Shown: positions 7,349 to 35,119 of the stretch, piece after piece | Layout: each line of letters starts with the position of its first letter | How positions within the stretch are numbered: position 1 is the first letter of the stretch | Notes under the pieces: model-generated | Database searches by the model: none | Told to the model about the DNA's origin: nothing | What the model saw: the letters and a program-made list of their open reading frames with translations, nothing else | From: a virus | Length of the DNA stretch: 35,119 nt | Virus record (IMG/VR): IMGVR_UViG_3300005613_000218 | Location: 1 to 35,119 of that record | Direction: 5' to 3' (one strand) | Made by a program: the position numbers and the translations under genes

Positions 7349-7374
7349 TTGGCGTAAACAACCAATAATGTAAG
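7349..7374 (+). promoter_or_regulatory. Conserved 26-bp intergenic element, copy A
   Basis: TTGGCG followed directly by TAAACAACCAATAATGTAAG, lying just after the ejection gene stop and 37 bases before the next start codon. It matches copies at 22956 and 28680 over the whole length (TAAACAACCAA identical in all three, TTG and TGTAA also shared). Downstream are a small GGCC/GGCC inverted repeat (7377-7389) and the leader of a new unit. A late promoter or activator site is the likeliest reading. The spacing does not suit a normal -35/-10 pair. Confidence 0.65.
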
Positions 7375-7411: not shown

Positions 7412-7798
7412 ATGTCATCCAGAGTTCTTTTAAAGCCCCAAAAAGTAATGGACGCTGTTGTAGCAGACCAAAACCGCACAAGCCTTGTTACCAACGTAAA
7501 CATGATTTCACTAGCCTCCTACACAATCGCATGGGGAAATGGCGTGACCGGCGATTTTGATGTTGAAGTGTCAAACGATTACATTGCTCCAGTAGGAGTG
7601 CAACCAGAACAATTAGATGTTGGAACCTGGGTTCCCGTTACTCTTAGCACTTCGGTTTCTGCTTCTGGTACAGCCGACACGGCTTTTATCGACATTGCAC
7701 TAACCGGCGCTGCTTATATCCGACTGAAATTTACTGATACGAGTGGCGGTGCTGGCACTGGCACAATTACGGCAACACTTGCAGGGAAGGTTAGCTAA
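7412..7798 (+). CDS. Small beta-rich virion protein
   Basis: The product is 128 residues, with ribosome site AAGGA eight bases before the ATG. The sequence is beta-rich, with alternating Ser/Thr/Val/Ala and little charge; parts such as ASYTIAWGNGVTGDFDVEVSND and the final GTITATLAGKVS look like a single beta-sandwich. It is the first gene after conserved element A and its stop overlaps the start of the large fibre gene (TAATG), so the two are probably made together. A fibre-associated or decoration protein is plausible. I recognise no named family. Confidence 0.6.
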   Translation: MSSRVLLKPQKVMDAVVADQNRTSLVTNVNMISLASYTIAWGNGVTGDFDVEVSNDYIAPVGVQPEQLDVGTWVPVTLSTSVSASGTADTAFIDIALTGAAYIRLKFTDTSGGAGTGTITATLAGKVS

Positions 7799-10584
7799 TG
7801 CCTACTTATTCTAAATACTCCCCAATTAGCGGTGGGGGCGGAACCGGCGGTATTACATCTATTAATGCTGACACTACTGCTGCTCAGCTTATTGTCGGCG
7901 GAACAGGCATCAGCGTTGCCACAGCTCTTGGCACAACAACCATCACAAACACTTCTCCTGCCCCTGCGACAGGAAATTTAACAGAAGCAATTTCTACTAT
8001 TTTAACTATTACTGGAGGCACTGGCGCTGTTGTTGGCTCTGGGACCACGATACAGGTAGCACAAGCGGGCGCAGCTCAAGACGGCTTTTTAAGCTCTACT
8101 GATTGGAATACGTTTAACAATAAACAACCCGCTGGCACTTACGTTACAAGCGTGACTGGAAGCGCTCCTGTTTCAAGCACTGGCGGAACCACTCCTGCAA
8201 TTTCAATATCTCAATCTGGAGTTGCAACAGACGGGTACTTATCGTCAACCGATTGGAATACATTCAACAATAAAGCATCTTATCCCGCATTTTCGGATGA
8301 CCAAGTCTTGTACTCCACAACGACTGGAGCAGAATGGCGAACCGTTGGGACCGGATCTACTACAGCCGCATATCCAACCGATACTGTTATTCTTGGAAGA
8401 ACTAAGCCCGCTGGGTTAACTGGCACAACAAATACACTAATTGGAAGTGCTGGAAACAGTTTAACTTCATCAATTAATAACGTGTTAATTGGAAAAAATG
8501 CAGGAAACCTACTTACCTCGCAAGGGGTTCCAAGTTTAGCAATTGGAAATGATGCATTAAGTTCTTTGAACACCGTTGGAGCAACGCACGGCGGAGTAAC
8601 GGCAATTGGATTTGAGGCGGCAAAATTAATTACCGATTCAGTTATTTCTGCTGTCGGTCCGCCGGGGTATTATCCACCCACAGCCGTTGGATATAAGGCG
8701 GGTTCTGTAAATACGACTAATTTAACTGGGTGCGTGCTGGTTGGCTATTTAGCCGGGGCGGTTGGCACAGCCATTGGAGGGTATTGCACTTTTATTGGCG
8801 CAAACACCGGAAGTGGTAGCGGGTCATCAAATGTCGGAATTGGCGCAAATTGTGGGCAAAACATGAACGGTAGCGATAACATAGCTATCGGATTGCAAGC
8901 CTCTTCTTTTGCCGCCCTTTCTGGAGCGGGAAATATTTGCATTGGAACAAATTCAGGAAGAATTACTTCTGGATCAAACAATTGCTTTATTGGAAAACTG
9001 TCTGGAAATTCTAGCTCATACGGGGGTGCTGTGCCCACAACGGGCGGCAACAATGTTTTAATTGGAGCAGAAACTAGCCTTTTGGTTAATTCAAATTCGT
9101 CTGCAATAGCTTTGGGACACCAAGCTTCTGCTGGCGCTAATGAGTTATGTGTTGGGAGCGCTAACGCTCAAATAAATACTGTTTTATTAGGTCGGGGCGG
9201 CGCATCTCAAACAACGGCTAACGCGGTAAAAATTCAAACGATGCGCGCCTCTGGAACAAATACCAGCATGACCGTTGGCACTTTAACTCTTGCTGGAGCG
9301 CAAGGAACAGGAACTGGCGCTGGCGGGGATGTCATTATTTCAACCGCGCCTGCTGGATCTTCCGGATCTTCTTTAAATGCCCATGTTGAAAGAATGCGCA
9401 TTGATAGTAATGGTAATGTTCTTGTAAATTACACCACACTAAGAACTAATTTTTTTAATGGAGGCGTCGCCGCTGGAAGAATTAGTTTGGAAGGAACAAG
9501 TCTATCAACTTCTTACATATCTTCAGTAAGAAATTCTAATGATTCTTTTTCTTCTCTTTTAATGCTTGGTAAAACCAGGGGCACAGCCGTTGGAAGCAAT
9601 ACTATTGTTCAAACCGGTGATCAAGCCGGCTATTTAAGTTTTCAAGCAGCTGACGGCACAAATCTTATTGAAACGAATGCAATTGCAAGCATCGTTACTG
9701 GAACCCCTGGTGCCGGGTCTTTAACTGGCGATTTAATTTTTAGAGGTAATAACGCTGCTGCTAATACAAGCGAACGAATGAGAATGACTGGCTCCGGCAG
9801 ACTTCTTATTGGAACGACTACTAATTTTAGTAGTGCAACGTTGTTACAGGTATCAGCAAACACAAATACAACACAAGTATTAGACGGATATTCAAACAAC
9901 TCGTCTTCGCCCACAATTCTCACAAGAAAAGCAAGGGGAACCGCCGCATCACCAACGGCTGCACAAAATGATGATTTTTTAATGTTTTTAGGCGCGTATC
10001 CTTACGGTGCAACCGCATTTGCTTCTGGCACCAGGGCCTCTATTGCATTTAGGGCTGCGGAAGACATAACTGATTCAGCCCAGGGAACATATATAACTTT
10101 TAACACAACTCCAACTGGTTCCACGACGGTCGCAGAAAGAATGCGCATTAATAGCGCTGGAAACGTGGGAATTGGAACGGCAACGCCTGCCGAAAAACTA
10201 GAAGTTGCAGGCGCAGTTTTAGCAACCGAATATCGAGTACCTAACTATCGCTTAGACCCGCACACTCACGACGAAGGCACTGAAACAACCGATTTCACAA
10301 TTAACTGGTCTAACGGAGCAGTACATACAGTTACACTAAACGCTGCTGGGCCTTTAGTTATTACAATGAATAACCCAGTAGATGGCGGAGCATATGCTTT
10401 AAGAATTATCCAAGGGGCAACCCCCGGAACGGTTACATGGCCTGCAAACGTAAAATGGCCAGGAGGAACTCCACCAACGCTTTCAACTAACACCGGCGAT
10501 GTTGATCTTGTTAACTTGCTGTACTTTGATGATGGCGGCGGCAACACTTATTATTATGCAACGTCAGCATTAGCATTTGCTTAA
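7798..10584 (+). CDS. Large tail fibre / adhesin-like protein
   Basis: The product is 928 residues, with its start overlapping the preceding stop by one base. Residues about 90-160 carry two copies of a DG(F/Y)LSSTDWNTFNNK repeat seen in many phage fibres. Residues about 210-465 are a run of loose NxxIGxxAG repeats resembling the left-handed beta-roll heads of trimeric adhesins. Three later modules read ERMRI(D/N)SxGNVLxxx (about residues 531, 658 and 779); in other fibres these precede an intramolecular chaperone domain. No S74 chaperone peptidase is present. Instead there is a roughly 110-residue C-terminal domain starting at RLDPHTHDEG. The protein is most likely a trimeric host-binding fibre. 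Confidence 0.8.
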   Translation: MPTYSKYSPISGGGGTGGITSINADTTAAQLIVGGTGISVATALGTTTITNTSPAPATGNLTEAISTILTITGGTGAVVGSGTTIQVAQAGAAQDGFLSSTDWNTFNNKQPAGTYVTSVTGSAPVSSTGGTTPAISISQSGVATDGYLSSTDWNTFNNKASYPAFSDDQVLYSTTTGAEWRTVGTGSTTAAYPTDTVILGRTKPAGLTGTTNTLIGSAGNSLTSSINNVLIGKNAGNLLTSQGVPSLAIGNDALSSLNTVGATHGGVTAIGFEAAKLITDSVISAVGPPGYYPPTAVGYKAGSVNTTNLTGCVLVGYLAGAVGTAIGGYCTFIGANTGSGSGSSNVGIGANCGQNMNGSDNIAIGLQASSFAALSGAGNICIGTNSGRITSGSNNCFIGKLSGNSSSYGGAVPTTGGNNVLIGAETSLLVNSNSSAIALGHQASAGANELCVGSANAQINTVLLGRGGASQTTANAVKIQTMRASGTNTSMTVGTLTLAGAQGTGTGAGGDVIISTAPAGSSGSSLNAHVERMRIDSNGNVLVNYTTLRTNFFNGGVAAGRISLEGTSLSTSYISSVRNSNDSFSSLLMLGKTRGTAVGSNTIVQTGDQAGYLSFQAADGTNLIETNAIASIVTGTPGAGSLTGDLIFRGNNAAANTSERMRMTGSGRLLIGTTTNFSSATLLQVSANTNTTQVLDGYSNNSSSPTILTRKARGTAASPTAAQNDDFLMFLGAYPYGATAFASGTRASIAFRAAEDITDSAQGTYITFNTTPTGSTTVAERMRINSAGNVGIGTATPAEKLEVAGAVLATEYRVPNYRLDPHTHDEGTETTDFTINWSNGAVHTVTLNAAGPLVITMNNPVDGGAYALRIIQGATPGTVTWPANVKWPGGTPPTLSTNTGDVDLVNLLYFDDGGGNTYYYATSALAFA

Positions 10585-13150: not shown

Positions 13151-13226
13151 TGGCTGGGCGAAAAGGGGTCGAACCTTTATAAACCAAGTTAACAGCTTGG
13201 GGCTTTACCAGTTAAGCTATCGCCCA
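13151..13226 (-). tRNA. tRNA-Asn (GTT)
   Basis: Read on the minus strand, this is a complete 76-base cloverleaf. Acceptor TGGGCGA pairs with TCGCCCA, followed by discriminator G and an encoded CCA. The D arm is GCTT/AAGC around AACTGGTA. The anticodon arm is CCAAG-CTGTTAA-CTTGG, giving anticodon GTT (Asn). The T arm is AAAGG-TTCGACC-CCTTT. All stems pair, so it should be functional. It is the only gene seen on the minus strand. It sits between the lysis genes and the early promoter, a common place for phage tRNAs, and also a possible relic of an attachment site, though no integrase is present. Confidence 0.95.
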
Positions 13227-16542: not shown

Positions 16543-16899
16543 AGAAGCAATCTTAAATACCGCAGCAAGAGGGTTAAGCACGAAGGATTTTCCTTCGCCT
16601 CCCAGTTAGAAGCCGCAGTCTATCAGCATCTAAAAATTAGAGAAAAGTGCGGAGAAATAAAAGACATTCAAAATCAAGATCATGTTTATTTAACTAACGC
16701 CCGCATTTGTTACATTCCCGATTTTAAATTTTTTGATTGTACAAGCAACGAGTTTGCCTGGGCCGAAGCTAAAGGCTTTGAAACAGACGTCTGGAAAATA
16801 AAAAAAAGACTTTGGCAACATTACGGTCCAGGCAGACTTGAAATTTACAAAGGCAGTGCAAAGAAAATAAAACTTTTTGAAACGGTAATACCGAAATGA
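16540..16899 (+). CDS. DUF1064-like nuclease (PD-(D/E)XK, Holliday-junction type)
   Basis: The product is 119 residues. Motifs follow the DUF1064 pattern: FASQLEAAVYQHLKIREKCGEI near the N-terminus with the first acidic residue, CYIPDFKFFD with the catalytic Asp, and WAEAKGFETDVWKIKKRLW with E-x-K. These small phage nucleases resemble Holliday-junction resolvases or T7 endonuclease I and may debranch replicating DNA before packaging. It is likely expressed with its early neighbours, and its stop overlaps the next start by four bases. There is no ribosome site at the ATG; see the hairpin overlapping it. Confidence 0.75.
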   Translation: MRSNLKYRSKRVKHEGFSFASQLEAAVYQHLKIREKCGEIKDIQNQDHVYLTNARICYIPDFKFFDCTSNEFAWAEAKGFETDVWKIKKRLWQHYGPGRLEIYKGSAKKIKLFETVIPK

Positions 16900-17496: not shown

Positions 17497-17759
17497 GTTT
17501 ATTTAAAAAAGAAAAAAAAGAAATGACCCTGCAAGATGTTGAGCAGGAGTTTAACAAAGCGCAGTTTGAGTTAGGAAGCCTTACTTATCTTGCAGACCTA
17601 AAAACGCATGAACTCAATTTGTACAACGACCAAATAAACAAGGTCTTTGAAAAAATGAGAAAGCTTGCGCACAAGGGAAATTTGCTTCGGGGTAAGATTC
17701 AAACCGAAATCGAAGAAACAATAAAGGCAGGAGAAAAAGTTGAAAGCCCGCTTAACTAA
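17493..17759 (+). CDS. Coiled-coil protein with GTG start, 88 residues
   Basis: GTG overlaps the previous stop (GTGA). A later ATG at 17523 is an alternative. The protein is almost all charged helix (LQDVEQEFNKAQFELGSL, YNDQINKVFEKMRKLAHKG). Two coiled-coil genes in a row, tightly coupled, suggest the products may pair with each other. No named function. Confidence 0.55.
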   Translation: MSLFKKEKKEMTLQDVEQEFNKAQFELGSLTYLADLKTHELNLYNDQINKVFEKMRKLAHKGNLLRGKIQTEIEETIKAGEKVESPLN

Positions 17760-18069
17760 ACAATTGAAATGGCTTAATTCTTTTGTACCCGAAAGGTTAC
17801 CTCAAGGTATGACAGAGTTTAACCGATGGGTTGATGACATAAGCGAGCTAACAGAGTTACCCGTAAACGATAAATTAAAAAAAGTTGTGGGAACTTTGAT
17901 TTTGCAAATGCCGCCGCAAATGGCTTACGTCAAAAAAAGACACATTGCCAATCTTGTGAAAAAGGCTGCTGCAAATCAAGTAAGCGTTGAAGTTATAAAC
18001 ACCATCGATGAAAAACAAAAACAACAAGACACTTGCAGCGCTGATACAAACATGGGACCGCAAGCTTAA
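17740..18069 (+). CDS. Unknown 109-residue protein with TTG start
   Basis: The TTG has AGGAG seven bases upstream and overlaps the gene before by 20 bases, so the rare start is well supported; the first ATG is at 17809 without such a site. The protein is basic and helical (LKWLNSFVPERLPQGMTEFN, KKVVGTLILQMPPQMAYVKK). Its last 62 bases overlap the HTH gene in another frame. No function assigned. Confidence 0.55.
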   Translation: MKARLTKQLKWLNSFVPERLPQGMTEFNRWVDDISELTELPVNDKLKKVVGTLILQMPPQMAYVKKRHIANLVKKAAANQVSVEVINTIDEKQKQQDTCSADTNMGPQA

Positions 18070-18427
18070 AGAGTCTGGATTTGAAGACATCGAATGCCGT
18101 AAGACGGGCCTTCTAAAAGAATGGTCTGGAAAAATATTTTACGGCTCAACGCTGATAAGTGACGACAATTTCGTCGATAAAATTAATAAAATAAATAAAA
18201 AGTTTGGATACGGAAGCCTTACCTACAAAGAAAGCGAAGTAGAATATTATAGGCTTGCAAGCCAATGTTTACATGACAAAGAATTCAAATCCGAAATTCA
18301 TAAAAGTATTTGGGAACTCCATTCTGACGGTTTTAGTTACTCAGAAATCTCAACAAAATTAAATATTACCAGAAGGCAGGTACGATACGCAATCGAGTGC
18401 ATGGCTAAAGCTTTTTGTCTCAAGTAA
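18008..18427 (+). CDS. HTH protein, candidate late transcription activator (RinA/ArpU-like position)
   Basis: The product is 139 residues. The C-terminal 40 residues form a clear helix-turn-helix of the sigma-70 region-4 kind: IWELHSDGFSYSEISTKL, then NITRRQVRYAIECMAKAF. The N-terminal 85 residues are basic and unrecognised. Proteins of this size with such a C-terminal HTH, encoded late in the early operon and shortly before the terminase genes, are typical late regulators (RinA, ArpU families). No ribosome site is visible, so it may depend on translation of the gene it overlaps. It is the only DNA-binding regulator seen and thus the prime candidate to act on the 26-bp late element; that link is inference. 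Confidence 0.6.
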   Translation: MKNKNNKTLAALIQTWDRKLKESGFEDIECRKTGLLKEWSGKIFYGSTLISDDNFVDKINKINKKFGYGSLTYKESEVEYYRLASQCLHDKEFKSEIHKSIWELHSDGFSYSEISTKLNITRRQVRYAIECMAKAFCLK

Positions 18428-18451
18428 CCAATATTGAAGCAAAGAGGAGCT

Positions 18452-18775
18452 ATGCAGCAATTAATTACATACCGAGACCATTCTGCCGACGATGAAGCTT
18501 TCCTTTTTGCCACATACTTAAAAAATAATTGGTACAGACAAGAATCTAGCACCATGCTTCCAAAAAAAGTTTGGATGTGGGCCCAGCACAAGCGGCTTGA
18601 AAAGATAATGAAGAAACAAAGTATTACTATTGCGTGCTTAAAAGATGACCCCGATGTGATTTTGGGATACGGATTTTGGGACGAGGACAAGCCCTTCACC
18701 TACATCAAACTTGCATGGCGAAGCGAAAAACTTAATTTAGAAAAAGAACTAATCGAAAGGATAAAACAACCATGA
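18452..18775 (+). CDS. GNAT-like phage protein, apparently shortened
   Basis: The product is 107 residues from an ATG with AGGAG five bases upstream; a TTG six codons earlier is open but lacks support. It follows the first half of a phage GNAT family: an N-terminal FLFATYLKNNWYRQ segment, PKKVWMWAQHKRLEKIM, then the strands ITIACLKDDPDVILGYGFW and PFTYIKLAWR. The usual acetyl-CoA loop and later helices are missing, so it may be a truncated or diverged member without activity. The next gene overlaps its stop by four bases. Confidence 0.5.
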   Translation: MQQLITYRDHSADDEAFLFATYLKNNWYRQESSTMLPKKVWMWAQHKRLEKIMKKQSITIACLKDDPDVILGYGFWDEDKPFTYIKLAWRSEKLNLEKELIERIKQP

Positions 18776-22867: not shown

Positions 22868-22926
22868 GCGTTTTCGTTGGTTTTTCGTTTCTTTGGGGAA
22901 GAAACAACGCTGCTTTTTACTATTTT
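22868..22926 (+). terminator. Probable terminator at the end of the early/packaging unit
   Basis: GTTTCTT-TGGGG-AAGAAAC (22887-22905) is a perfect 7-bp hairpin. It is flanked by a further GCGTT/AACGC pair (22868-22872 with 22906-22910), and T-rich sequence follows (TGCTTTTTACTATTTTT). The stem is A/T-rich, so strength is uncertain, but the position between two transcription units fits. Confidence 0.5.
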
Positions 22927-22955
22927 TAAACAAAACCGCAAGCTTTTTTATCAAT

Positions 22956-22981
22956 TTGTCCTAAACAACCAACTTTGTAAC
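22956..22981 (+). promoter_or_regulatory. Conserved 26-bp intergenic element, copy B
   Basis: TTGTCC followed by TAAACAACCAACTTTGTAAC, located after the terminator region and 46 bases before the first head gene. Five bases downstream is a CTGTC-actaaac-GACAG hairpin (22986-23002). It matches copies A and C over the same 26 positions and is probably the promoter or activator site of the head operon. Confidence 0.65.
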
Positions 22982-23027
22982 AAAACTGTCACTAAACGAC
23001 AGGATCAAACAAAACCTTGGAGCCACA

Positions 23028-23255
23028 ATGTCCCTGCCATTTGCACTTAAAGAAGACGATAAAAAAGGAGCCGCCGTGATTGTAGAGCATCGAAGTGAGC
23101 GCGAAGAGCGCCCAAGAAATTTAGGATTAGAAGCCGCAGCAGAAGAACTTTTAAAAGCAATGGAACGAAAAGACGTGCAAGGCATGGCCAATGCTCTAAC
23201 CAGTGCTTTTTATCTTCTAGACGCAATGCCACACGCTGAGGGAGAGCACGAGTAA
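23028..23255 (+). CDS. Small head-operon protein
   Basis: The product is 75 residues, with GGAG six bases before the ATG. It is charged at the N-terminus, then forms a helix (LEAAAEELLKAMERKDVQGM, ALTSAFYLLDAMPHAEG). Similar short acidic helical proteins often precede the portal gene in environmental podoviruses. It is the first gene after element B. The stop overlaps the next start (TAATG). Confidence 0.6.
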   Translation: MSLPFALKEDDKKGAAVIVEHRSEREERPRNLGLEAAAEELLKAMERKDVQGMANALTSAFYLLDAMPHAEGEHE

Positions 23256-23950
23256 TGCCGCTCATCGAAGGTAAATCAAAAAAAACGCTCCAAAAGAATA
23301 TTAAAACAGAAATCGAGTCGGGCCGTGACCCAAAACAGGCTGTTGCTATTGCCTATGCTGTAAAGCGAAGAAACATGGCAAAGGGCGGCGGATTGTACGC
23401 AAACATACACGCTAAGCGTGAAAGAATTGCTGAAGGAAGCGGCGAGAAGATGAGAAAGCCTGGAAGCGAAGGTGCTCCTACGGCAGACGCATTTAAACAA
23501 GCAGAAAAAACAGCCAACATGGCTGAAGGGGGAATGATGAAAGAAGCAATGTGCGCCCATGGTGGCAGAGTAAGCTGCAACAAGGGCTGTTACGCTGAAG
23601 GTGGAATGGTGCAAAACGAAAAACTAAATCCACATCATCAGCCCGCAATGGACCCGCAATTGAAACACCAAATTGCAACAATGAAAAAGCCCGGCATGAA
23701 TTTAAGCGAAGTTGCTAAGCTTGCAATGGGCGGAGTCGTTGAGCAAATCATGAAAGAACGAAAGAAAATGGCCGAAGGCGGAATGGTTGAAGAAGAAGAA
23801 AGACTTAGAGAGCCTGACTTTGAACCCGCGATGGACTTTTCTAATTACAATTATATGGAAGACGACGAGCACGATGTTGAGCCCGTTGAGATGAGCAACA
23901 AACTTGTCGGCCAAATCATGACGGATAGGAAAAAAAGAGTTTCAAGCTAA
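23255..23950 (+). CDS. Repeat-containing head-operon protein with EGGMV motifs
   Basis: The product is 231 residues. The N-terminal 45 residues (MPLIEGKSKKTLQKNIKTEI, then DPKQAVAIAYAVKRRNM) match a conserved module seen in many podoviruses. The remainder is low in secondary structure and repeats short motifs: MAKGGG, MAEGGMM, YAEGGMV, MAEGGMV, with a CAHGGRVSCNKGC cysteine patch that could bind metal. The C-terminal part is acidic. The same EGGMV tag ends the portal protein. Its location before the portal suggests a head assembly or internal virion role, but this is not established. Confidence 0.6.
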   Translation: MPLIEGKSKKTLQKNIKTEIESGRDPKQAVAIAYAVKRRNMAKGGGLYANIHAKRERIAEGSGEKMRKPGSEGAPTADAFKQAEKTANMAEGGMMKEAMCAHGGRVSCNKGCYAEGGMVQNEKLNPHHQPAMDPQLKHQIATMKKPGMNLSEVAKLAMGGVVEQIMKERKKMAEGGMVEEEERLREPDFEPAMDFSNYNYMEDDEHDVEPVEMSNKLVGQIMTDRKKRVSS

Positions 23951-24177
23951 TGGATTTAAAGGACTTAAAAGACCTTCTTCGGGTTTTACGAGATAAGGGC
24001 GTTACAGAATACGAATGCCAGGGAGTAAGACTAAAACTTTCAGAAGACGCCCCTTTATCTAAATACAAACGGCGGCAAGAGTTTGCAGAAATCGAAGGTG
24101 AGCCCGAGCTGACCGAAGAAGAACGGCTTTTTTACTCTGCGATTCCCCCCATGCAAGCAATTGAAGAACAACAATGA
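23950..24177 (+). CDS. Small protein before the portal
   Basis: The product is 75 residues, coupled on both sides (TAATG upstream, ATGA downstream). The first 32 residues (MDLKDLKDLLRVLRDKGV, then TEYECQGVRLKLSED) are a short helix-strand unit; the rest is acidic and probably disordered. Short proteins of this type commonly precede portal genes. Function unknown. Confidence 0.6.
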   Translation: MDLKDLKDLLRVLRDKGVTEYECQGVRLKLSEDAPLSKYKRRQEFAEIEGEPELTEEERLFYSAIPPMQAIEEQQ

Positions 24178-26093
24178 GTTTAAAAACAACTTTAAAATCT
24201 AATAGCGGAAGAACAACCAGAGTCTATAAGACTACTGACATGGGGATGCAAATAGATAAAGGCTACAGATGGTGGGAAGCGAGAACAACCGAAGAACGAA
24301 AAAACCAACTTCTTGCCACTGTAGCTTTTTTAAAACAAGGCCAAAAGTTTAGACAAGAAGAGGCGAGGGTTTACAGTCAACTATATACTGGAAAGCCAAT
24401 GGTCGGGTATGCAGGCCCCGCGTTCAGTAAAGTGAGTAACCCGCTCAATATTTCTCCAGGAAGACCCACATACAACCTTATTTCCTCTGTTGCTGACACT
24501 TTAGTTAGTAAACTCACTCAAGATAGGCCTGTGCCTGTATTTCTTACCGACAACGGCGATTACAAAGAAAGAAATTTAGCAAAGAAACTCAATGATTTCA
24601 TTTTAGGAGAGTTTTACAGAACAAAAGCTTACCAAATGGGAGAACAGCTTTTGGTCGATGCTCTTGTGCAAGGCACTGGAGTTTTAAAGATACATGAGAC
24701 CATGGACAAAAAGGTTGGCATCGAAAGAGTTTTGCCAATCGAACTTTTTGTGGATTTAGAGGAAGCAAGATTTGGCAATCCTAGAAGAATGTATCAAGTG
24801 AAATACATGGATAGGGCCATGGTTGAGAGTGCCTTTCCTAAGCATAAAGCAATGGCCGCTTCTGCTGACAAAGGAATTTTAGAGCAAAGTGACGCAGCTA
24901 GAAGCGTTGCTGATTTAGTAGTCGTTGTTGAGGGATGGGCATTACCAAGCGGTGAAGATACAAACGACGGCTATCACTCTATTGTTTGCAGCCAAGGTGA
25001 GCTCTTTGGAGAAAAGTGGACCAAACAAGAATTTCCTTTTGTGTTTTTGCATCACAAGAAAAGGCCTGAAGGATTTTGGGCGCAAGGAGTTGCTGAGAGC
25101 CTCATGGGCACGCAGCTAACTTTAAATGATTTACTTATCACCATTGCCCAATCGATTAGAACAATGGGAGTGCCAAGAGTATTTGTGGAAGAAGGAAGCA
25201 AAGTAAATAAGGCTTCATTTCAAAATAAAGTTGGGGTTATAATTCCTTATCGTGGCACCGCTCCTATTTTTGCTGTTAGCCCATCAAACGCTCCCGAGCT
25301 GTACGAAGAAAGAGCACGACTCATACAATTCGGTTTTGAGCAAGAGGGTCTGTCCATGCTTTCGGCAACGAGCCAAAAGCCAGCGGGTCTCAATTCAGGA
25401 GAAGCACAAAGAGTATATCAGGACATCAACTCAGACAGATTTGCGTCGCTAGAAAGAAGGTATACAAACTTTTATGTGGATTTGGCTTACCAAATTATTG
25501 ATAAGGCCCTTGATATCGCAAAGCGAGATGGAAGCTATACTACAATCTTTACAGACAGAAAACGAGGCTGCAAACAAATCGAGCTACCAAAAATCAAAAT
25601 GCTCGAAGACCCGTTCGTTATTCAAGCCTACGTTCAATCGTCACTCCCGAAAGACCCAGCCGGAAGACTGCAAAAAGTAACCGAAATGATTCAAGCCAAT
25701 ATGGTTACGATCCAAGAGGGTCGAAGACTTCTTGATTTTCCTGATCTTGGCCAAGTGGAAACGCTTGCAAATGCTTCTGAAGAAAGAATCTATTTCATTC
25801 TTGATGAGATTATTGAGAACGGTGTTTACGAAGGGCCCGACCAATTTATGAACCTTGCAAAGGCCACTGAAATCGTCACGCAATACATCAATCTTTACTC
25901 AACCTGTAAGCTTGAAGAAGAAAAGCTTCAAATGCTTCGAGACTTCTTTGCAGAAATTCAAGACTTGCAAATGGCTGCAATGCCACAACCTCCGATGATG
26001 CCTCCTGGAGGGGGAATTGAGAATCAATTAGCTGTGCCTGAAGCATTACCGAGCAGTCCAATGCTTCCGATGTCAGAAGGCGGAATGGTTTAA
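24174..26093 (+). CDS. Portal protein
   Basis: The product is 639 residues, within the usual range of podovirus portals. Recognisable pieces are the YTGKPMVGYAG and RPTYNLISSVADTLVSKL region near the N-terminus, the stem/clip regions with VVVEGWALPSGED, EGFWAQGVAESLMGTQLTLND, a central helix block, and an MVTIQEGRRLLDFPDLGQ segment near the C-terminus. The last 40 residues are Met/Pro-rich and end in SEGGMV. Twelve copies form the ring through which DNA enters and leaves. It stands between the small head genes and the scaffold. Confidence 0.85.
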   Translation: MSLKTTLKSNSGRTTRVYKTTDMGMQIDKGYRWWEARTTEERKNQLLATVAFLKQGQKFRQEEARVYSQLYTGKPMVGYAGPAFSKVSNPLNISPGRPTYNLISSVADTLVSKLTQDRPVPVFLTDNGDYKERNLAKKLNDFILGEFYRTKAYQMGEQLLVDALVQGTGVLKIHETMDKKVGIERVLPIELFVDLEEARFGNPRRMYQVKYMDRAMVESAFPKHKAMAASADKGILEQSDAARSVADLVVVVEGWALPSGEDTNDGYHSIVCSQGELFGEKWTKQEFPFVFLHHKKRPEGFWAQGVAESLMGTQLTLNDLLITIAQSIRTMGVPRVFVEEGSKVNKASFQNKVGVIIPYRGTAPIFAVSPSNAPELYEERARLIQFGFEQEGLSMLSATSQKPAGLNSGEAQRVYQDINSDRFASLERRYTNFYVDLAYQIIDKALDIAKRDGSYTTIFTDRKRGCKQIELPKIKMLEDPFVIQAYVQSSLPKDPAGRLQKVTEMIQANMVTIQEGRRLLDFPDLGQVETLANASEERIYFILDEIIENGVYEGPDQFMNLAKATEIVTQYINLYSTCKLEEEKLQMLRDFFAEIQDLQMAAMPQPPMMPPGGGIENQLAVPEALPSSPMLPMSEGGMV

Positions 26094-26113
26094 CCTTTTT
26101 AGCAAACAATAAT

Positions 26114-26127
26114 CTCGTCGCAACGAG
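26114..26127 (+). other. Short hairpin in the scaffold leader
   Basis: CTCGT-CGCA-ACGAG forms a 5-bp stem just before the AAAGGA ribosome site of the scaffold gene. Upstream AGCAAACAATAAT faintly recalls the late element. Probably a translation or RNA-stability element. Confidence 0.35.
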
Positions 26128-26140
26128 GAAAGGAACAACA

Positions 26141-27238
26141 ATGCCACTCAACGTAGAACCACGCGCTAATCCAGCACCACAAACGTCAACCCCAACGGCA
26201 AGACCACAAGTAAATTACGGTACACCTACGCCAACAACGGCAAGGGTCGAAGCCTTAAAGCAAAAACTAATCAATCCTACTCAACAACAGACTGCGGCAC
26301 CAAGGGTTGCTGGAAGTACAGCTAGACAAGAACAATATTCTAAGCAGCCACATCAAGCACCAAAACAAATTCCTCAACAAAATCAACAACGTACACAGCC
26401 AATGCAAGACATTGAGCCGCCCCCAGGGGGAATGCCAGCTGCTAATGTAGAGGCCCCAGCTAGTGATACAGTGTCACAAACAACCAATATTGTTGAGACA
26501 GCGGAAGAACCATCTTCGGAAGCAACCGAGAAGCCCGTTAGTCCTCAATTTGTCGCTCTCGCAAAACAAGAGCGAGCAATTCGGAAAGCCCGACAAGAGC
26601 TAAAGGCGCAGCAGGAGTCTTGGGAGCGTGAGAAAGCGACTCATATCAATCTCGAGCAGCTCAAAGCTGATCCGCTTAAAGCACTTGCCGAAGCTGGCAT
26701 CTCTTACGATCGCCTGACCGAGTTACAGCTAGGTCAGGTCAATCCAGATCCAAATCAACAACTTCTCGACAAGATTGCAGAACTGGAAAACAGACTCGCG
26801 CAAGTAGACGAGCAATTTACGAAACGTGATACAGCTCAGTACGAAGCCGCGGTCAATCAGATTCGTAACGATGTAAAGCTTTTGGTCGATTCTGATCCTA
26901 CGTTTGAAACAATCAAGGAAACTGGCGAGACAGAATCCGTGGTTGAACTTATTAGAAAGGTCTTTGACGCTGAAGGAACTATCCTCGCTGTAGAGGAAGC
27001 CGCCCGATTAGTCGAAGATAAGCTTTTAGAGAATAAGCTTGCTGAAATCGAAAAGCTTTCAAAACTTTCTAAATTTAAGTCGCGTTTAGGAAAGCTGGCA
27101 GAGACCCCAGCAGAAGCAAGTGAGTTGCAGCAACAACAAACCGCCACGACTCTTACAAACGAAGGTACGGTTAGCCGTCCTTTAAGTGCAAGGGAGCGGG
27201 CAATTCAAGCATTTGAAAAAGCTAAGTCTAACGGCTGA
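26141..27238 (+). CDS. Scaffolding protein
   Basis: The product is 365 residues, with AAAGGA ahead of the ATG. The first 145 residues are Pro/Gln/Thr/Ala-rich and probably disordered; the middle is a long charged helix (KQERAIRKARQELKAQQESW onward) and the end is basic (LSARERAIQAFEKAKSNG). This disordered arm, coiled rod and basic tail is the usual scaffold layout, and it lies directly between portal and major capsid. It would guide prohead assembly and leave the shell before or during packaging. Confidence 0.75.
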   Translation: MPLNVEPRANPAPQTSTPTARPQVNYGTPTPTTARVEALKQKLINPTQQQTAAPRVAGSTARQEQYSKQPHQAPKQIPQQNQQRTQPMQDIEPPPGGMPAANVEAPASDTVSQTTNIVETAEEPSSEATEKPVSPQFVALAKQERAIRKARQELKAQQESWEREKATHINLEQLKADPLKALAEAGISYDRLTELQLGQVNPDPNQQLLDKIAELENRLAQVDEQFTKRDTAQYEAAVNQIRNDVKLLVDSDPTFETIKETGETESVVELIRKVFDAEGTILAVEEAARLVEDKLLENKLAEIEKLSKLSKFKSRLGKLAETPAEASELQQQQTATTLTNEGTVSRPLSARERAIQAFEKAKSNG

Positions 27239-27285
27239 ATGGTTCGGCCAAAAGAGGCTTAGCTATTTAACCAAGGACTAAAACA

Positions 27286-28593
27286 ATGCCTACATTTGCT
27301 AGCTCGTCCAGCTCGATTGCAGTTCTTAAGGAATTGTATGTCGATAATTCGGACTTTATGAAAGACTTGGTCTATTCGAAGAATCCGCTTTTTGCTTTGA
27401 TGCCAAAAAACGAATCTACGGATGGACTAGCTGGAAAATACATTCCAGTCCCAATTCAATACGGAAACCCAATGGGCCGTTCGCATACATTTGCTGACGC
27501 CCAAACAAACCAAACACCGAACGCTTACCAAAGCTTCTTTGTTTATGTTGTTCAAGATTACCAATTGATCACCATCACCAACTTGCTTATTGAACAAACA
27601 AAAAGCAATGCTGGCGCTTTTGTTGACGAAATGAAGCGACAAATGGATGGCGGTATCAAGAACCTTTCAAACAACATGGCGTTTGAATTGTTCCATTCCG
27701 GTACCGCTACTCGTGGCGTGATTGGCTCTGCCATCACTAACCCATCGGTTGGCGTCTACCAATTCACACTTCAAAATCCACAAGACGTGGTGCAATTTGA
27801 AGTTGGAATGACCATTCAGGCTGCTGCCACAGATGGTGGCGCTCCTATCAACGCTGGAACGGACCTGGCTCTGGTTAGCTCTGTGAACAGAGCAACTGGC
27901 GTCATCCAATTCACTGTTGTATCAGGTGCTCCTCAATCTAACTGGTCAAACGGAAACTTCCTGACAGTTGAAGGGGACATCCCTGTAACTGGGGGTTCCG
28001 GATCAGGACCATTAGGCTCAGTAGGTTCTTACCTTGCAGCTTCAGGCTTAGCAGCTTGGGTTCCTGCAACCAGCCCTGCGCTTTCAGATTCGTTCTGGGG
28101 CGTAAACCGGTCGGTTGATCCTACTCGTTTAGCAGGTCTTCGTTATGACGCTTCTTCGTACTCAATCGAAGAAGGCGTTGTTAACGCTCTTGCCTTTGCA
28201 AACCGAGAAGGCGCTGATCCAGATACCCTAATCCTGTCTTTCCAAAGCTACAGCGCATTGGAAAACGCTTTAGGAGCCAAAGTGCAATATGTGGACGTGA
28301 AACACGAAGAAGCAAACATTGCTTTTGAAGGTATTCGTTTCCACAGTGCTTATGGCTATGTAACTGTAATGGCCGACAGAAGCTGCCAGCCCCTAACAGG
28401 TTGGTGCTTGAGCATGGATACTTGGAAGCTTCGCTCTTTGGGCAAAGCCCCCCATATCCTAACTTACGGACTTGAAGGCTTAGAAGGTCTTCGAGTTGGT
28501 AACAGCGATGCTCTAGAAGTTCGCGTCGGTGCTTACTACAATTACACTTGCAATGCTCCTGGGTACAACCTTAGGATCACATTGTCGGCGTAG
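27286..28593 (+). CDS. Major capsid protein
   Basis: The product is 435 residues, with AAGGA nine bases before the ATG. The N-terminal region (LKELYVDNSDFMKDLVYSKN, PLFALMPKNESTDGLAGKYI) and the later VDEMKRQMDGGIKNLSNNMA helix are typical of HK97-fold capsid proteins of environmental podoviruses. Residues about 155-240 form a beta-rich, glycine-rich segment that looks like an inserted surface domain. The C-terminal part (ALENALGAKVQYVDVKHEEA, then WKLRSLGKAPHI) fits the A-domain. The gene is followed by a strong terminator, in keeping with high expression. Confidence 0.88.
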   Translation: MPTFASSSSSIAVLKELYVDNSDFMKDLVYSKNPLFALMPKNESTDGLAGKYIPVPIQYGNPMGRSHTFADAQTNQTPNAYQSFFVYVVQDYQLITITNLLIEQTKSNAGAFVDEMKRQMDGGIKNLSNNMAFELFHSGTATRGVIGSAITNPSVGVYQFTLQNPQDVVQFEVGMTIQAAATDGGAPINAGTDLALVSSVNRATGVIQFTVVSGAPQSNWSNGNFLTVEGDIPVTGGSGSGPLGSVGSYLAASGLAAWVPATSPALSDSFWGVNRSVDPTRLAGLRYDASSYSIEEGVVNALAFANREGADPDTLILSFQSYSALENALGAKVQYVDVKHEEANIAFEGIRFHSAYGYVTVMADRSCQPLTGWCLSMDTWKLRSLGKAPHILTYGLEGLEGLRVGNSDALEVRVGAYYNYTCNAPGYNLRITLSA

Positions 28594-28599
28594 TGCCGA

Positions 28600-28618
28600 T
28601 CGAGTTTGAGCGACTCGA
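28600..28618 (+). other. Small hairpin after the capsid stop
   Basis: TCGAGT-ttgagcg-ACTCGA is a perfect 6-bp stem seven bases after the capsid stop codon and 22 bases before the terminator. It may protect the capsid mRNA end. There is no T run after it. Confidence 0.4.
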
Positions 28619-28639
28619 CAAGATGCGTAAAGAACACTT

Positions 28640-28683
28640 CTTGGGGTGCAGGGCAAACGCCTTGTGCCCCGAGTTGTTTTTGG
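28640..28683 (+). terminator. Strong rho-independent terminator after the major capsid gene
   Basis: CTTGGGGTGCA (28640-28650) pairs with TGTGCCCCGAG (28663-28673) in an 11-bp stem with three wobble pairs, with additional AGG/CCT pairing inside, followed by TTGTTTTT. It ends exactly where copy C of the 26-bp element begins, marking a clean boundary between two transcription units. Confidence 0.8.
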
Positions 28684-28705
28684 CCTAAACAACCAATCAT
28701 GTAAG
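28680..28705 (+). promoter_or_regulatory. Conserved 26-bp intergenic element, copy C
   Basis: TTGGCC followed by TAAACAACCAATCATGTAAG. Its first bases overlap the T tract of the capsid terminator, and the hairpin CCCAAG-acgtc-CTTGGG (28706-28722) follows with no gap. The next gene starts 82 bases downstream. This is the clearest terminator-promoter junction in the window and the best evidence that the element starts transcription. Confidence 0.7.
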
Positions 28706-28733
28706 CCCAAGACGTCCTTGGGATACTACTCGC

Positions 28734-28775
28734 CGAAGTTCTGCCCACTTCGTTGCTAGGGAAATTAAGGGCGGA
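28734..28775 (+). other. Possible pseudoknot in the leader of the 28788 gene
   Basis: CGAAGT (28734-28739) pairs with ACTTCG (28747-28752), leaving the 7-base loop TCTGCCC. That entire loop can pair with GGGCGGA (28769-28775) with one G-U pair, and GGGCGGA lies one base before the AAGGA ribosome site. An H-type pseudoknot this close to the ribosome site could tune translation. Confidence 0.4.
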
Positions 28776-28787
28776 CAAGGACACATC

Positions 28788-29444
28788 ATGGCTAATCGAA
28801 ATTGGCTCTCCAATAAAATGTATCAAATGGAAGCTTACCCCGTACTGGTAAGCTGCAACTTCGTTGTAGACGAAGCAAACGTAAACGGTCTTGGTCAAAA
28901 ATTCTTAAAAGGCGCTGGAGTTAAAAATGTTTACATGAAAACTTCCGCAACTCCTGCTGCCGGCAATCCTAATCCAGAAGACGGAATTATCATGATTGAA
29001 CTAGAAGATAATTATAATCGTCTTCTTAACGGATTTGCTTCTGCCGTATCTCCTCTTGATGGATCTTCTCAAACAGCAACGGTTGCTGGAAATATTGCGG
29101 TAATCGTATCTTTAGGAACCGCCACACTTGCTCAATGGCAAGCAGCCGGTCTACCAGTTGGAGTCACTCCAGCTGTTGGAGTTGCTTTTGTCGCAACTGC
29201 AACTGGCACAATCGGTGGCTCCGCAGCCGTACAAGGAGTTGGCGTATCAGGCGGAGTAAGTCTTGAAACTTGCGGAAATACAAACTTAAGTTTGGCAAGA
29301 GCTAATAGCCCAGTAAACGGCGGAGGACTGGTTTATTTACAAGCCCTTGATGCTGCCGGTGCTAAGGTTGCTCCCGCTGACGACACAGTAATTGCCGTTA
29401 GCTTGTATCTTTCAAACAGTTCTGTAACTGTACAGGGACAGTAA
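28788..29444 (+). CDS. Abundant-type virion protein (head decoration or major structural)
   Basis: The product is 218 residues, with AAGGA seven bases before the ATG. It starts MANRNWLSNKMYQMEAYPVL, a start shared by a family of structural proteins that follow the capsid gene in many podoviruses; the rest is beta-rich with Gly/Ala/Val/Thr repeats (AAVQGVGVSGGVSLETCGN). It has its own strong signals: element C ahead and a terminator behind, which suggests high and separately timed expression. Decoration of the capsid surface is the best guess. Confidence 0.65.
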   Translation: MANRNWLSNKMYQMEAYPVLVSCNFVVDEANVNGLGQKFLKGAGVKNVYMKTSATPAAGNPNPEDGIIMIELEDNYNRLLNGFASAVSPLDGSSQTATVAGNIAVIVSLGTATLAQWQAAGLPVGVTPAVGVAFVATATGTIGGSAAVQGVGVSGGVSLETCGNTNLSLARANSPVNGGGLVYLQALDAAGAKVAPADDTVIAVSLYLSNSSVTVQGQ

Positions 29445-29453
29445 AAACCTACT

Positions 29454-29498
29454 AGGGGTAGCTTGCAGTCTCCGGCAGGCTGCCCCTTAATTTATTTA
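29454..29498 (+). terminator. Rho-independent terminator after the 28788 gene
   Basis: AGGGGTAGC (29454-29462) pairs with GCTGCCCCT (29479-29487) in a 9-bp stem with one wobble, followed by TAATTTATTT. It leaves the 28788 gene as a single-gene unit between element C and this stop. Partial read-through would serve the tail genes downstream, for which no separate promoter was found. Confidence 0.7.
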
Positions 29499-29506
29499 GG
29501 AGTTGT

Positions 29507-33055: not shown

Positions 33056-35119
33056 ATGGCATTACAAAAACAACAAGTAGCTGTCAATTTTGGGCAGGGT
33101 TTAGACACCAAAACTGATCCATGGCAAGTGCCAGTGGGAAGTTTTCTTAATTTAGAAAATACCATATTTAATAAAATAGGACGGCTTGAAAAAAGAAATG
33201 GCTTTGAACAAATTGGCTCATTGCCCAATGAAAACGTATATGGTCTTGCAACATTCAAAGACCAATTAACACTATTAGGAGATAATCTTTACGCTTATCA
33301 AGACGGCGGTACTTTTTTAAATCGGGGCCCCTATCGCCCCTGCAAAGTAGAATCAAAATCACTTCTTAAAAACATATTTAATCACGTTCAATGTGATTCT
33401 GCCGTGTCTGGCGACTTAACTTGCGTTGCCTACACAACAGCGCTTGGCGGAGGAGCATTTGGTTACGAGTATGCAATATTAAACGCAAACACCGGGCAAG
33501 CTGTTGTATCAAGAACGGCATTGACAGGTACAGGCGGCAATCCAAACGGAAGTCCTAGAGTAATTTTGTACAACAATCACTTTGTCATTGCTTACAGCGT
33601 TCTCGTAGGAGCGGCAGACCAATTACAGTTTATTAGAATTCCCGTAAATAACTTAATTGCATCCTCTCCCGCTGTTATATCAACCGACTTTGATTATTTA
33701 ACCGGACAAAACTTTGATTTAGTCGTTGGTCAGTCAAACTTATACGTTGCTTGGAACAGAGCAAGCGGAAATGGTGTTTACGCAGCCGTTATTGATGTTG
33801 GATTTAATGTTGGTTCTCCGGTATTAGTAGAAGCATCAAGAGTTGCAAATGTGATGTCTTTGTCTTTTGACAACGATTCTTCTTTCAACAATTTAAGCGT
33901 TGTTTATTATGATGCAGCAGCCGGGTTAGGGCGGATTGCAATATTAGATTTAAATTTAAATTCTGTATTAGTTCCTACAACCTATTTTACTTCAACCCCC
34001 CCGTTTGACATTTTAAATTTAACCTCTCTATCTAATGCAGGGGTTTGCACAATAATTTATGAATTAGAAAACGAATATTCGTACAATTCTGTTGCAAACA
34101 ACCTAACAAAAAAAGTTGATGTAAACACAGCTGGAACCGTTGGAGCCACAACAACTATCGTTGACGGTAACGGTCTTGGGTCAAAAGCATTTAAAATTGA
34201 TGGAACCGCATACATCGTAACAACTCACCAAGATGTCACTCAAGACAGTTATTTTGTAACAGACTTGTCTGGAAATGTTGTGGCAAAATTTTCTTACACA
34301 ACTGGCGATGGTTACGTTACAAGAGGCGTTCCTAATGTAACAGTTGTTGCAAATGTAGCTAGACTTGCTTTCTTGCAAAAAACACAAAGCGTGGCAGGGG
34401 CAAGCGGGGCAACAGAAGGAGCTGGAGTAAATCAGCTAGATTTAACAGTTGGCGGAGTACCAGTTTATTCAGCAGAACTAGGAAGCAATCTAAACATTTC
34501 TGGCGGAATTCAATGGTCTTATGATGGGGTTACTCCAGTAGAAAATAATTTTTTATTATATCCAGAAAACCTTGACGGAGCAGCAACAACTGGCGGCTCG
34601 ATGGCCGCGCAAATCTATCGATATGCTGCAATTTATGTTTGGGTTGATAATCAAGGAAACACAATAAGAAGCTCGCCGTCAGAAGAAATAGAAGTTAATT
34701 TAGTTGGTCCAAATAATGCAATTGACGTAAACATTTCTACTTTAAGACTTACTTACAAAACAAACGTTTTGATTCAATTGTATCGTTGGTCTCAGGCAGA
34801 ACAAGTTTTTCATTTTACCGGAGGAATAGTAAATAACCCGAGTGTTAATTTTGTTACTTTTGCTGACACTCAGACAGACGCTTCGATTATTGGAAATGAA
34901 ATCCTATATACAAATGGGGGAATTTTACCAAACCTGCCGGGACCCCCGTGCTCTGCAATGACTTTGTTTGATAATCGATTGTGGGTTATAGACTCCACAA
35001 GCCCCGATACTATTTGGTATTCAAAAATCGTAATCCCGGGCACCCCGGTCGAAATGTCAGATTTCCAAACGTTTTATGTTTCTCCTACACAAAGCGCACA
35101 AGGAACAACTGGTATTGTT
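33056..35119 (+). CDS. Tail nozzle / DNA-stabilisation protein, N-terminal part (runs off the end)
   Basis: The ATG follows the fibre stop with no gap. The frame stays open to the end of the window, and at 34997 enters the repeat that continues at base 1, giving 994 residues in all. The N-terminus (MALQKQQVAVNFGQGLDTKT, DPWQVPVGSFLNLENTIFNK, RLEKRNGF) is the characteristic opening of T7 gp12/P22 gp10-type nozzle proteins. A beta-rich body follows with PPCSAMTLFDNRLWVID just before the join. It sits after adaptor and fibres, as expected for the nozzle. Confidence 0.8.
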   Translation, partial: MALQKQQVAVNFGQGLDTKTDPWQVPVGSFLNLENTIFNKIGRLEKRNGFEQIGSLPNENVYGLATFKDQLTLLGDNLYAYQDGGTFLNRGPYRPCKVESKSLLKNIFNHVQCDSAVSGDLTCVAYTTALGGGAFGYEYAILNANTGQAVVSRTALTGTGGNPNGSPRVILYNNHFVIAYSVLVGAADQLQFIRIPVNNLIASSPAVISTDFDYLTGQNFDLVVGQSNLYVAWNRASGNGVYAAVIDVGFNVGSPVLVEASRVANVMSLSFDNDSSFNNLSVVYYDAAAGLGRIAILDLNLNSVLVPTTYFTSTPPFDILNLTSLSNAGVCTIIYELENEYSYNSVANNLTKKVDVNTAGTVGATTTIVDGNGLGSKAFKIDGTAYIVTTHQDVTQDSYFVTDLSGNVVAKFSYTTGDGYVTRGVPNVTVVANVARLAFLQKTQSVAGASGATEGAGVNQLDLTVGGVPVYSAELGSNLNISGGIQWSYDGVTPVENNFLLYPENLDGAATTGGSMAAQIYRYAAIYVWVDNQGNTIRSSPSEEIEVNLVGPNNAIDVNISTLRLTYKTNVLIQLYRWSQAEQVFHFTGGIVNNPSVNFVTFADTQTDASIIGNEILYTNGGILPNLPGPPCSAMTLFDNRLWVIDSTSPDTIWYSKIVIPGTPVEMSDFQTFYVSPTQSAQGTTGIV
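34997..35119. repeat. Terminal direct repeat, right copy (circular assembly overlap)
   Basis: Exact repeat of bases 1-123, in the same coding frame of the nozzle gene. It shows the molecule closes on itself. The true physical ends of the virion DNA cannot be read from this. Confidence 0.95.

Follow-up and report, generated by a model that had tools for sequence, protein, structure and literature searches.

A 26-bp element that recurs at five places in the window (the whole stretch of viral DNA analysed, 35,119 nucleotides) is probably a phage-specific late promoter or operator, in which columns 1-17 would be read by a phage factor and columns 18-26 would serve as the start region. Comparison of related genomes shows five sites at fixed junctions and on a fixed strand, with a genome-specific matching that has sharp edges at columns 1 and 17. 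The window encodes a T7-type connector/portal, a capsid protein, a terminase and tail fibres. Comparison of its ends finds positions 1-123 and 34997-35119 to be identical (123 bases), which looks like the mark of a complete genome, either circularly assembled or terminally repetitive.

A pattern scan of the whole window with TTGKCSTAAACAACCAANNNTGTAAS gives exact matches at 7349-7374 (copy A), 22956-22981 (copy B) and 28680-28705 (copy C), all on the + strand and all intergenic, in agreement with the sequence-only reading; there is no fourth match at up to three mismatches, and none is expected in 100 shuffles. That reading had counted three copies in all and overlooked two others, which are retrieved by a weight matrix made from copies A-C: copy D (18415-18440, TTGTCTCAAGTAACCAATATTGAAGC) and copy E (26471-26496, GTGTCACAAACAACCAATATTGTTGA). 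The bases AACCAA at columns 12-17 are common to the five copies, all of which are on the + strand at transcription-unit boundaries. Copy A is upstream of a 128-aa ORF (7412-7798) and the fibre gene (7798-10584), copy B is upstream of the head operon (ORF 23028-23255 onward), and copy C has the capsid gene on one side and ORF 28788-29444 on the other. Copy D spans the stop codon of ORF 18008-18427, a gene for a helix-turn-helix (HTH) protein, with the next ATG (18452) 11 bases on; copy E lies in the presumed scaffold ORF (26141-27238), approximately 790 bases upstream of its presumed target, the major capsid gene (27286-28593, + strand, PHROG 9953). The names "small virion protein" and "decoration protein", previously given to the products of genes behind copies A and C, fit the positions of those genes but find no PHROG match, and are positional only. 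Behind the capsid gene is a terminator-like hairpin (28640-28681, + strand) with a 15-bp stem at 28640-28673 and a T tract at 28674-28681, of which the last two T are the first bases of copy C, as had been noticed before; because copy C follows the terminator directly, new initiation is needed there. Within ORF 23255-23950, 128 bases (23390-23517) have 70-77% DNA identity to T7-like cyanophages and a roseophage, the sole DNA-level match to cultured phages within the searched interval 22900-29500, and part of the protein encoded by this ORF has a second copy elsewhere in genome G008.

Viral contigs searched with the capsid and portal proteins yielded dozens of relatives, and several long records were read whole. 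In relatives with a major capsid protein 82-96% identical, each of these five junctions again has an element, invariably on the coding strand, except that some of the genomes are without copy D (a clear copy was not found in G004, G006 or L169). The layout is the same in another spelling: TTGGCTTAAAAATACAGTTGTGTAAG in G001, TTGCCTTAATTAAACAATAGCGTAAG in G004 and TTGTATCAAATAGCCTAAGGGTGTAGA in G006. Relatives devoid of any conserved element at the junctions of copies A-C had been named as the outcome that would speak against the earlier proposal; what the relatives keep there is an element of the same strand, specific to each genome. A scan of 2.9 million viral contigs with a 19-base core pattern gives 39 exact matches, of which 38 are chance matches outside the group and only one contig (L023/L143) is a relative, so the element is not a generic promoter word. 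More distant genomes (capsid 55-57% identical) have an analogous element, nTGTG-N6-AnaGCA-NN-TTTGACG, at junctions C and B, placed at 7320 and 2254 of L061 and at 16862 and 11586 of L146; only C-like and B-like elements were seen in this distant group, not all five. Among cultured phages, no related capsid, portal or HTH protein was found and terL is at most 38% identical; a search for the host through capsid or portal relatives in GTDB genomes found none.

Near-identical records were collapsed beforehand to give a statistics set of 45 sites from 11 genomes or genome types; set L136 combines three contigs that come from a single sample and are taken to represent one phage type. The invariant part of the element had been given as TAAACAACCAA, and over the 45 sites it contracts to G3 and A12 (45/45 each), followed by C5 (43), C15 (42), G22 (41) and T21 (40). 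When genome labels are shuffled within each junction, with genomes treated as exchangeable, the agreement of columns 1-17 between different junctions of one genome is 0.788 as compared to 0.638 permuted (0/5000); the corresponding values are 0.789 and 0.334 for column 4, 0.871 and 0.666 for columns 12-17, and 0.503 and 0.489 (660/5000) for columns 18-26. In five-base steps, the excess of within-genome matching starts at column 1 and falls after column 17, and the flanking bases are at chance level, which implies that the copies are not recent duplications. A smaller excess at columns 21-26 (11/3000) is obtained with flanks taken directly from the genomes, and in earlier data these columns agree better at the same junction across genomes (0.731) than within a genome (0.563). 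Copy E alone, despite lying in a gene, matches its own genome's version (E-only permutation, 0/5000). A search of genome G015 seeded with its D copy (beginning TTGTCTCAATTACACAA) returned four further + strand copies at the predicted junctions, one preceding the 128-aa ORF, one preceding the head operon, one within the scaffold gene and one separating the capsid gene from the gene that follows; its 17-mer at up to two mismatches has five matches where none is expected. A spelling proper to each virus at the same places is what would be expected if each uses a matching switch protein.

Genome-specific spelling would also be a property of a repressor operator resembling a stoperator, at which a bound phage protein blocks or ends transcription, as the repressors of cluster A mycobacteriophages do. 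According to two accounts (PMC9283540, PMC6550527), asymmetric sites of one orientation near gene ends with a genome-specific consensus are hallmarks of stoperators too, and the weak dyad of 17 bp suits a dimer. Such an operator is unlikely here, however, as the sites number no more than five and each precedes a late unit; copy C is right behind a terminator, where initiation must restart; columns 21-26 are conserved as well; and no integrase was seen among the scanned ORFs.

If the element is a promoter, the position of its RNA 5' end is constrained by what follows it. At copy B, a ribosome-binding site (AAAGGA, AAAGGG or AGAGGA) is found 1-6 bases past column 26 in G001, L138, L141 and G006; a start codon is 10-16 bases from D copies; and covarying hairpins at copies A and C begin at columns 27-31. 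Ribosome-binding sites occur at 25 of 42 real start codons of the window versus 12% of other ATGs, and thus those behind the element are likely to be used. With ribosome-binding sites and hairpins directly behind the element, the RNA 5' end of such a promoter would be at or before approximately column 28. Behind copy C and ahead of ORF 28788-29444, the leader at 28700-28790 (+ strand) is predicted to be structured, with a 5' hairpin, an H-type pseudoknot and pairing to the ribosome-binding site. The pseudoknot has ten pairs, all standard in 11 sequences and eight of them changed on both sides (0/500 shuffles), and its model finds the copy in G015 (E 9e-11); the UGUCCUUG/CAAGGACA pairing could hide the ribosome-binding site, and most of the leaders compared have a segment able to pair in this way. 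The leaders have no match in Rfam, and the leader of 28700-28790 is possibly a new cis-regulatory RNA.

One structured leader downstream, together with the adjacency of ribosome-binding sites and hairpins, would be compatible with an element that works in RNA, where late mRNA would be bound or processed immediately before the ribosome-binding site. An RNA-level function is likewise unlikely: at copy C the upstream transcript should stop at the T tract just ahead of the element, copy E sits mid-gene, the genome-specific columns 1-17 give no conserved stem, and a fast-evolving DNA-binding protein covaries with the element.

Readings of the element as a sigma-70 or a sigma-54 promoter are rejected on position. 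Recognition by sigma-70 had been doubted for want of proper spacing, and this holds: TTG is at column 1, but 20-21 bases separate it from NGTARN where a sigma-70 promoter has 16-18 between its hexamers, and there is no sigma-70-like match on the + strand near the copies. With a -10 box at TGTARS, the start would fall near column 33, and ribosome-binding sites and hairpins would be cut off; a start at column 28 could be served, as a suggestion only, by a weak AANNNT at columns 16-21. Sigma-54 (GG at -24, GC at -12), likewise judged a poor fit earlier, is rejected over the 45 sites, in which column 4 varies between C, G and T, column 14 is always A or C, and no GC occupies the -12 position. A weak sigma-70-like site (13260-13233) lies just upstream of a tRNA-Asn(GTT) gene (13151-13226), which runs on the - strand, against the direction of the phage genes. 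As for an enzyme of the phage itself, the statement that no RNA polymerase is encoded is borne out by a search with PF00940, which has no match in this genome (G000) or its relatives and finds the control enzyme of S-TIP37 at E 6e-70. The polymerase motif set was not found in the large ORFs, all non-structural ORFs are shorter than 300 aa, and the 978-aa ORF had no hit in a PDB sequence search. An unrecognised single-subunit phage RNA polymerase would agree with the length of the putative promoter, its contact with the RNA start and the 5' hairpin, in the manner of T7-type promoters, and the Syn5 promoter ATTGGGCACCCGTAA loosely shares TTGG...CA...GTAA (PMC3950665), but with the PF00940 and motif searches empty and no non-structural ORF of that length, its existence is very improbable. 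That the copies are chance matches or functionless repeats of recent duplication has their small number in its favour and nothing more, and with none expected, flanks at chance level and sites conserved across genomes it is scarcely credible.

For a promoter or operator read by a phage factor, the likeliest reader is the product of ORF 18008-18427 (+ strand, 139 aa), a candidate specificity factor with a sigma-region-4/LuxR-like HTH at its C-terminus according to sequence comparison and structure prediction. The C-terminal part is predicted with high confidence and aligns to sigma region 4/LuxR-like structures with Z up to 7.2 over 52 residues, this being a common fold; the N-terminal half is modelled with low confidence. 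The resemblance to sigma region 4 is at the level of fold and weak by sequence, the family matches all being below threshold: late transcriptional activator phrog_836 (E 0.024), NF005385 of the Xpf type (E 0.027) and Sigma70_r4_2 (E 0.0005-0.004). Sigma region 2 (PF04542) was not found in five genomes of the group with controls positive, although a very divergent region 2 could escape. The HTH protein is 60% identical between G000 and G001, as compared to 79% for the preceding protein, 90% for the portal and 96% for the capsid, and by this measure its ORF is fast-evolving. The recognition helix reads DK-x-RR exactly in the three of nine genomes that have C at column 4 (G004, G014, L124), and the other six have R/K-rich recognition helices and G or T at column 4. 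Terminase and portal trees group G004 with G006, L138 and L141, whose elements are of the other kind; in the portal tree, L136 (same contig as L124) joins G005, and G014 joins L049, again with elements of the other kind in each case. Because the kinds of HTH and element cut across these lineages, the two appear to have undergone joint changes on more than one occasion, among nine genomes with few independent changes; the HTH family tree gave no resolution. The trio of LPQG-motif protein, HTH protein and acetyltransferase-like protein (17740-18775) is kept even in distant relatives on contigs of up to 58 kb (L174-L180).

In the proposed mechanism, each phage would encode its own version of a factor that reads columns 1-17 (TTGnCtYAAWTAnMCAA, weakly dyad-symmetric), DNA would melt or RNA would start within columns 18-26 (TnnTGTAR), the RNA 5' end lying near columns 24-28, and the HTH protein would bind the element and activate the host RNA polymerase. 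We infer the start of RNA at the element, its binding by the HTH protein and the activation of host polymerase from sequence comparison. One consideration against a promoter is that with a 17-bp dyad and a start no later than column 28, the centre of the bound factor would be near -19, which sets it apart from ordinary activators of sigma-70 promoters. A more specific possibility, offered tentatively, is that in a podovirus-like lineage with no polymerase of its own the small HTH protein acts as the specificity part of host RNA polymerase, with the 17-bp module spanning approximately -27 to -11 and transcription beginning at its right-hand edge, and that the regulator and its five sites co-evolve as lock and key in each phage. 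The activator-dependent or altered-polymerase promoter suggested by the sequence-only reading gains from the conserved junctions and from the failure to find a phage polymerase or, on the + strand near the copies, a sigma-70-like site; the candidate regulator and two of its sites had escaped that reading.

To our knowledge, the way in which phages of T7-like appearance with no RNA polymerase turn to their late genes has not been established for uncultured lineages. The sites, the candidate reader and nine HTH sequences, each with its own version of the element, form a natural matched set for testing recognition, and a search for short words that match within a genome and differ between relatives can reveal promoters whose number is too small for ordinary motif finding.

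Among known systems, the late regulators of temperate phages of Gram-positive bacteria offer one parallel: Ltr genes are directly upstream of their promoter (PMC13123087), and copy D is on the end of the candidate regulator gene in the window and several relatives, G004, G006 and L169 being without it. RinA, Ltr/LtrC, ArpU, Alt of TP901-1 and Xpf of PBSX act mainly at one promoter, through repeats that occupy approximately -107 to -32, ahead of a -10 box that can be recognised (PMC13123087), whereas the element has five dispersed sites, each apparently abutting an RNA start, with no recognisable sigma-70 boxes, and the HTH protein has no significant sequence match to these regulators (NF005385 being the best). 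The phage sigma factor promoters of phiEco32 and 7-11, TAATGTATA (PMC4331800), are similarly few, dispersed and strand-consistent late promoters, and copy A holds TAATGTAAG (7/9 bases); the differences are the failure to find sigma region 2 here and the additional 17-bp genome-specific module of the element. With T7-type promoters the element shares its length, its conservation, its variation from phage to phage, its place beside a putative RNA start and a 5' hairpin, and it differs in that no polymerase gene was found here. Mycobacteriophage stoperators are likewise intergenic sites of one orientation with a consensus specific to a genome group, but here the sites number only five and each stands before a late gene unit.
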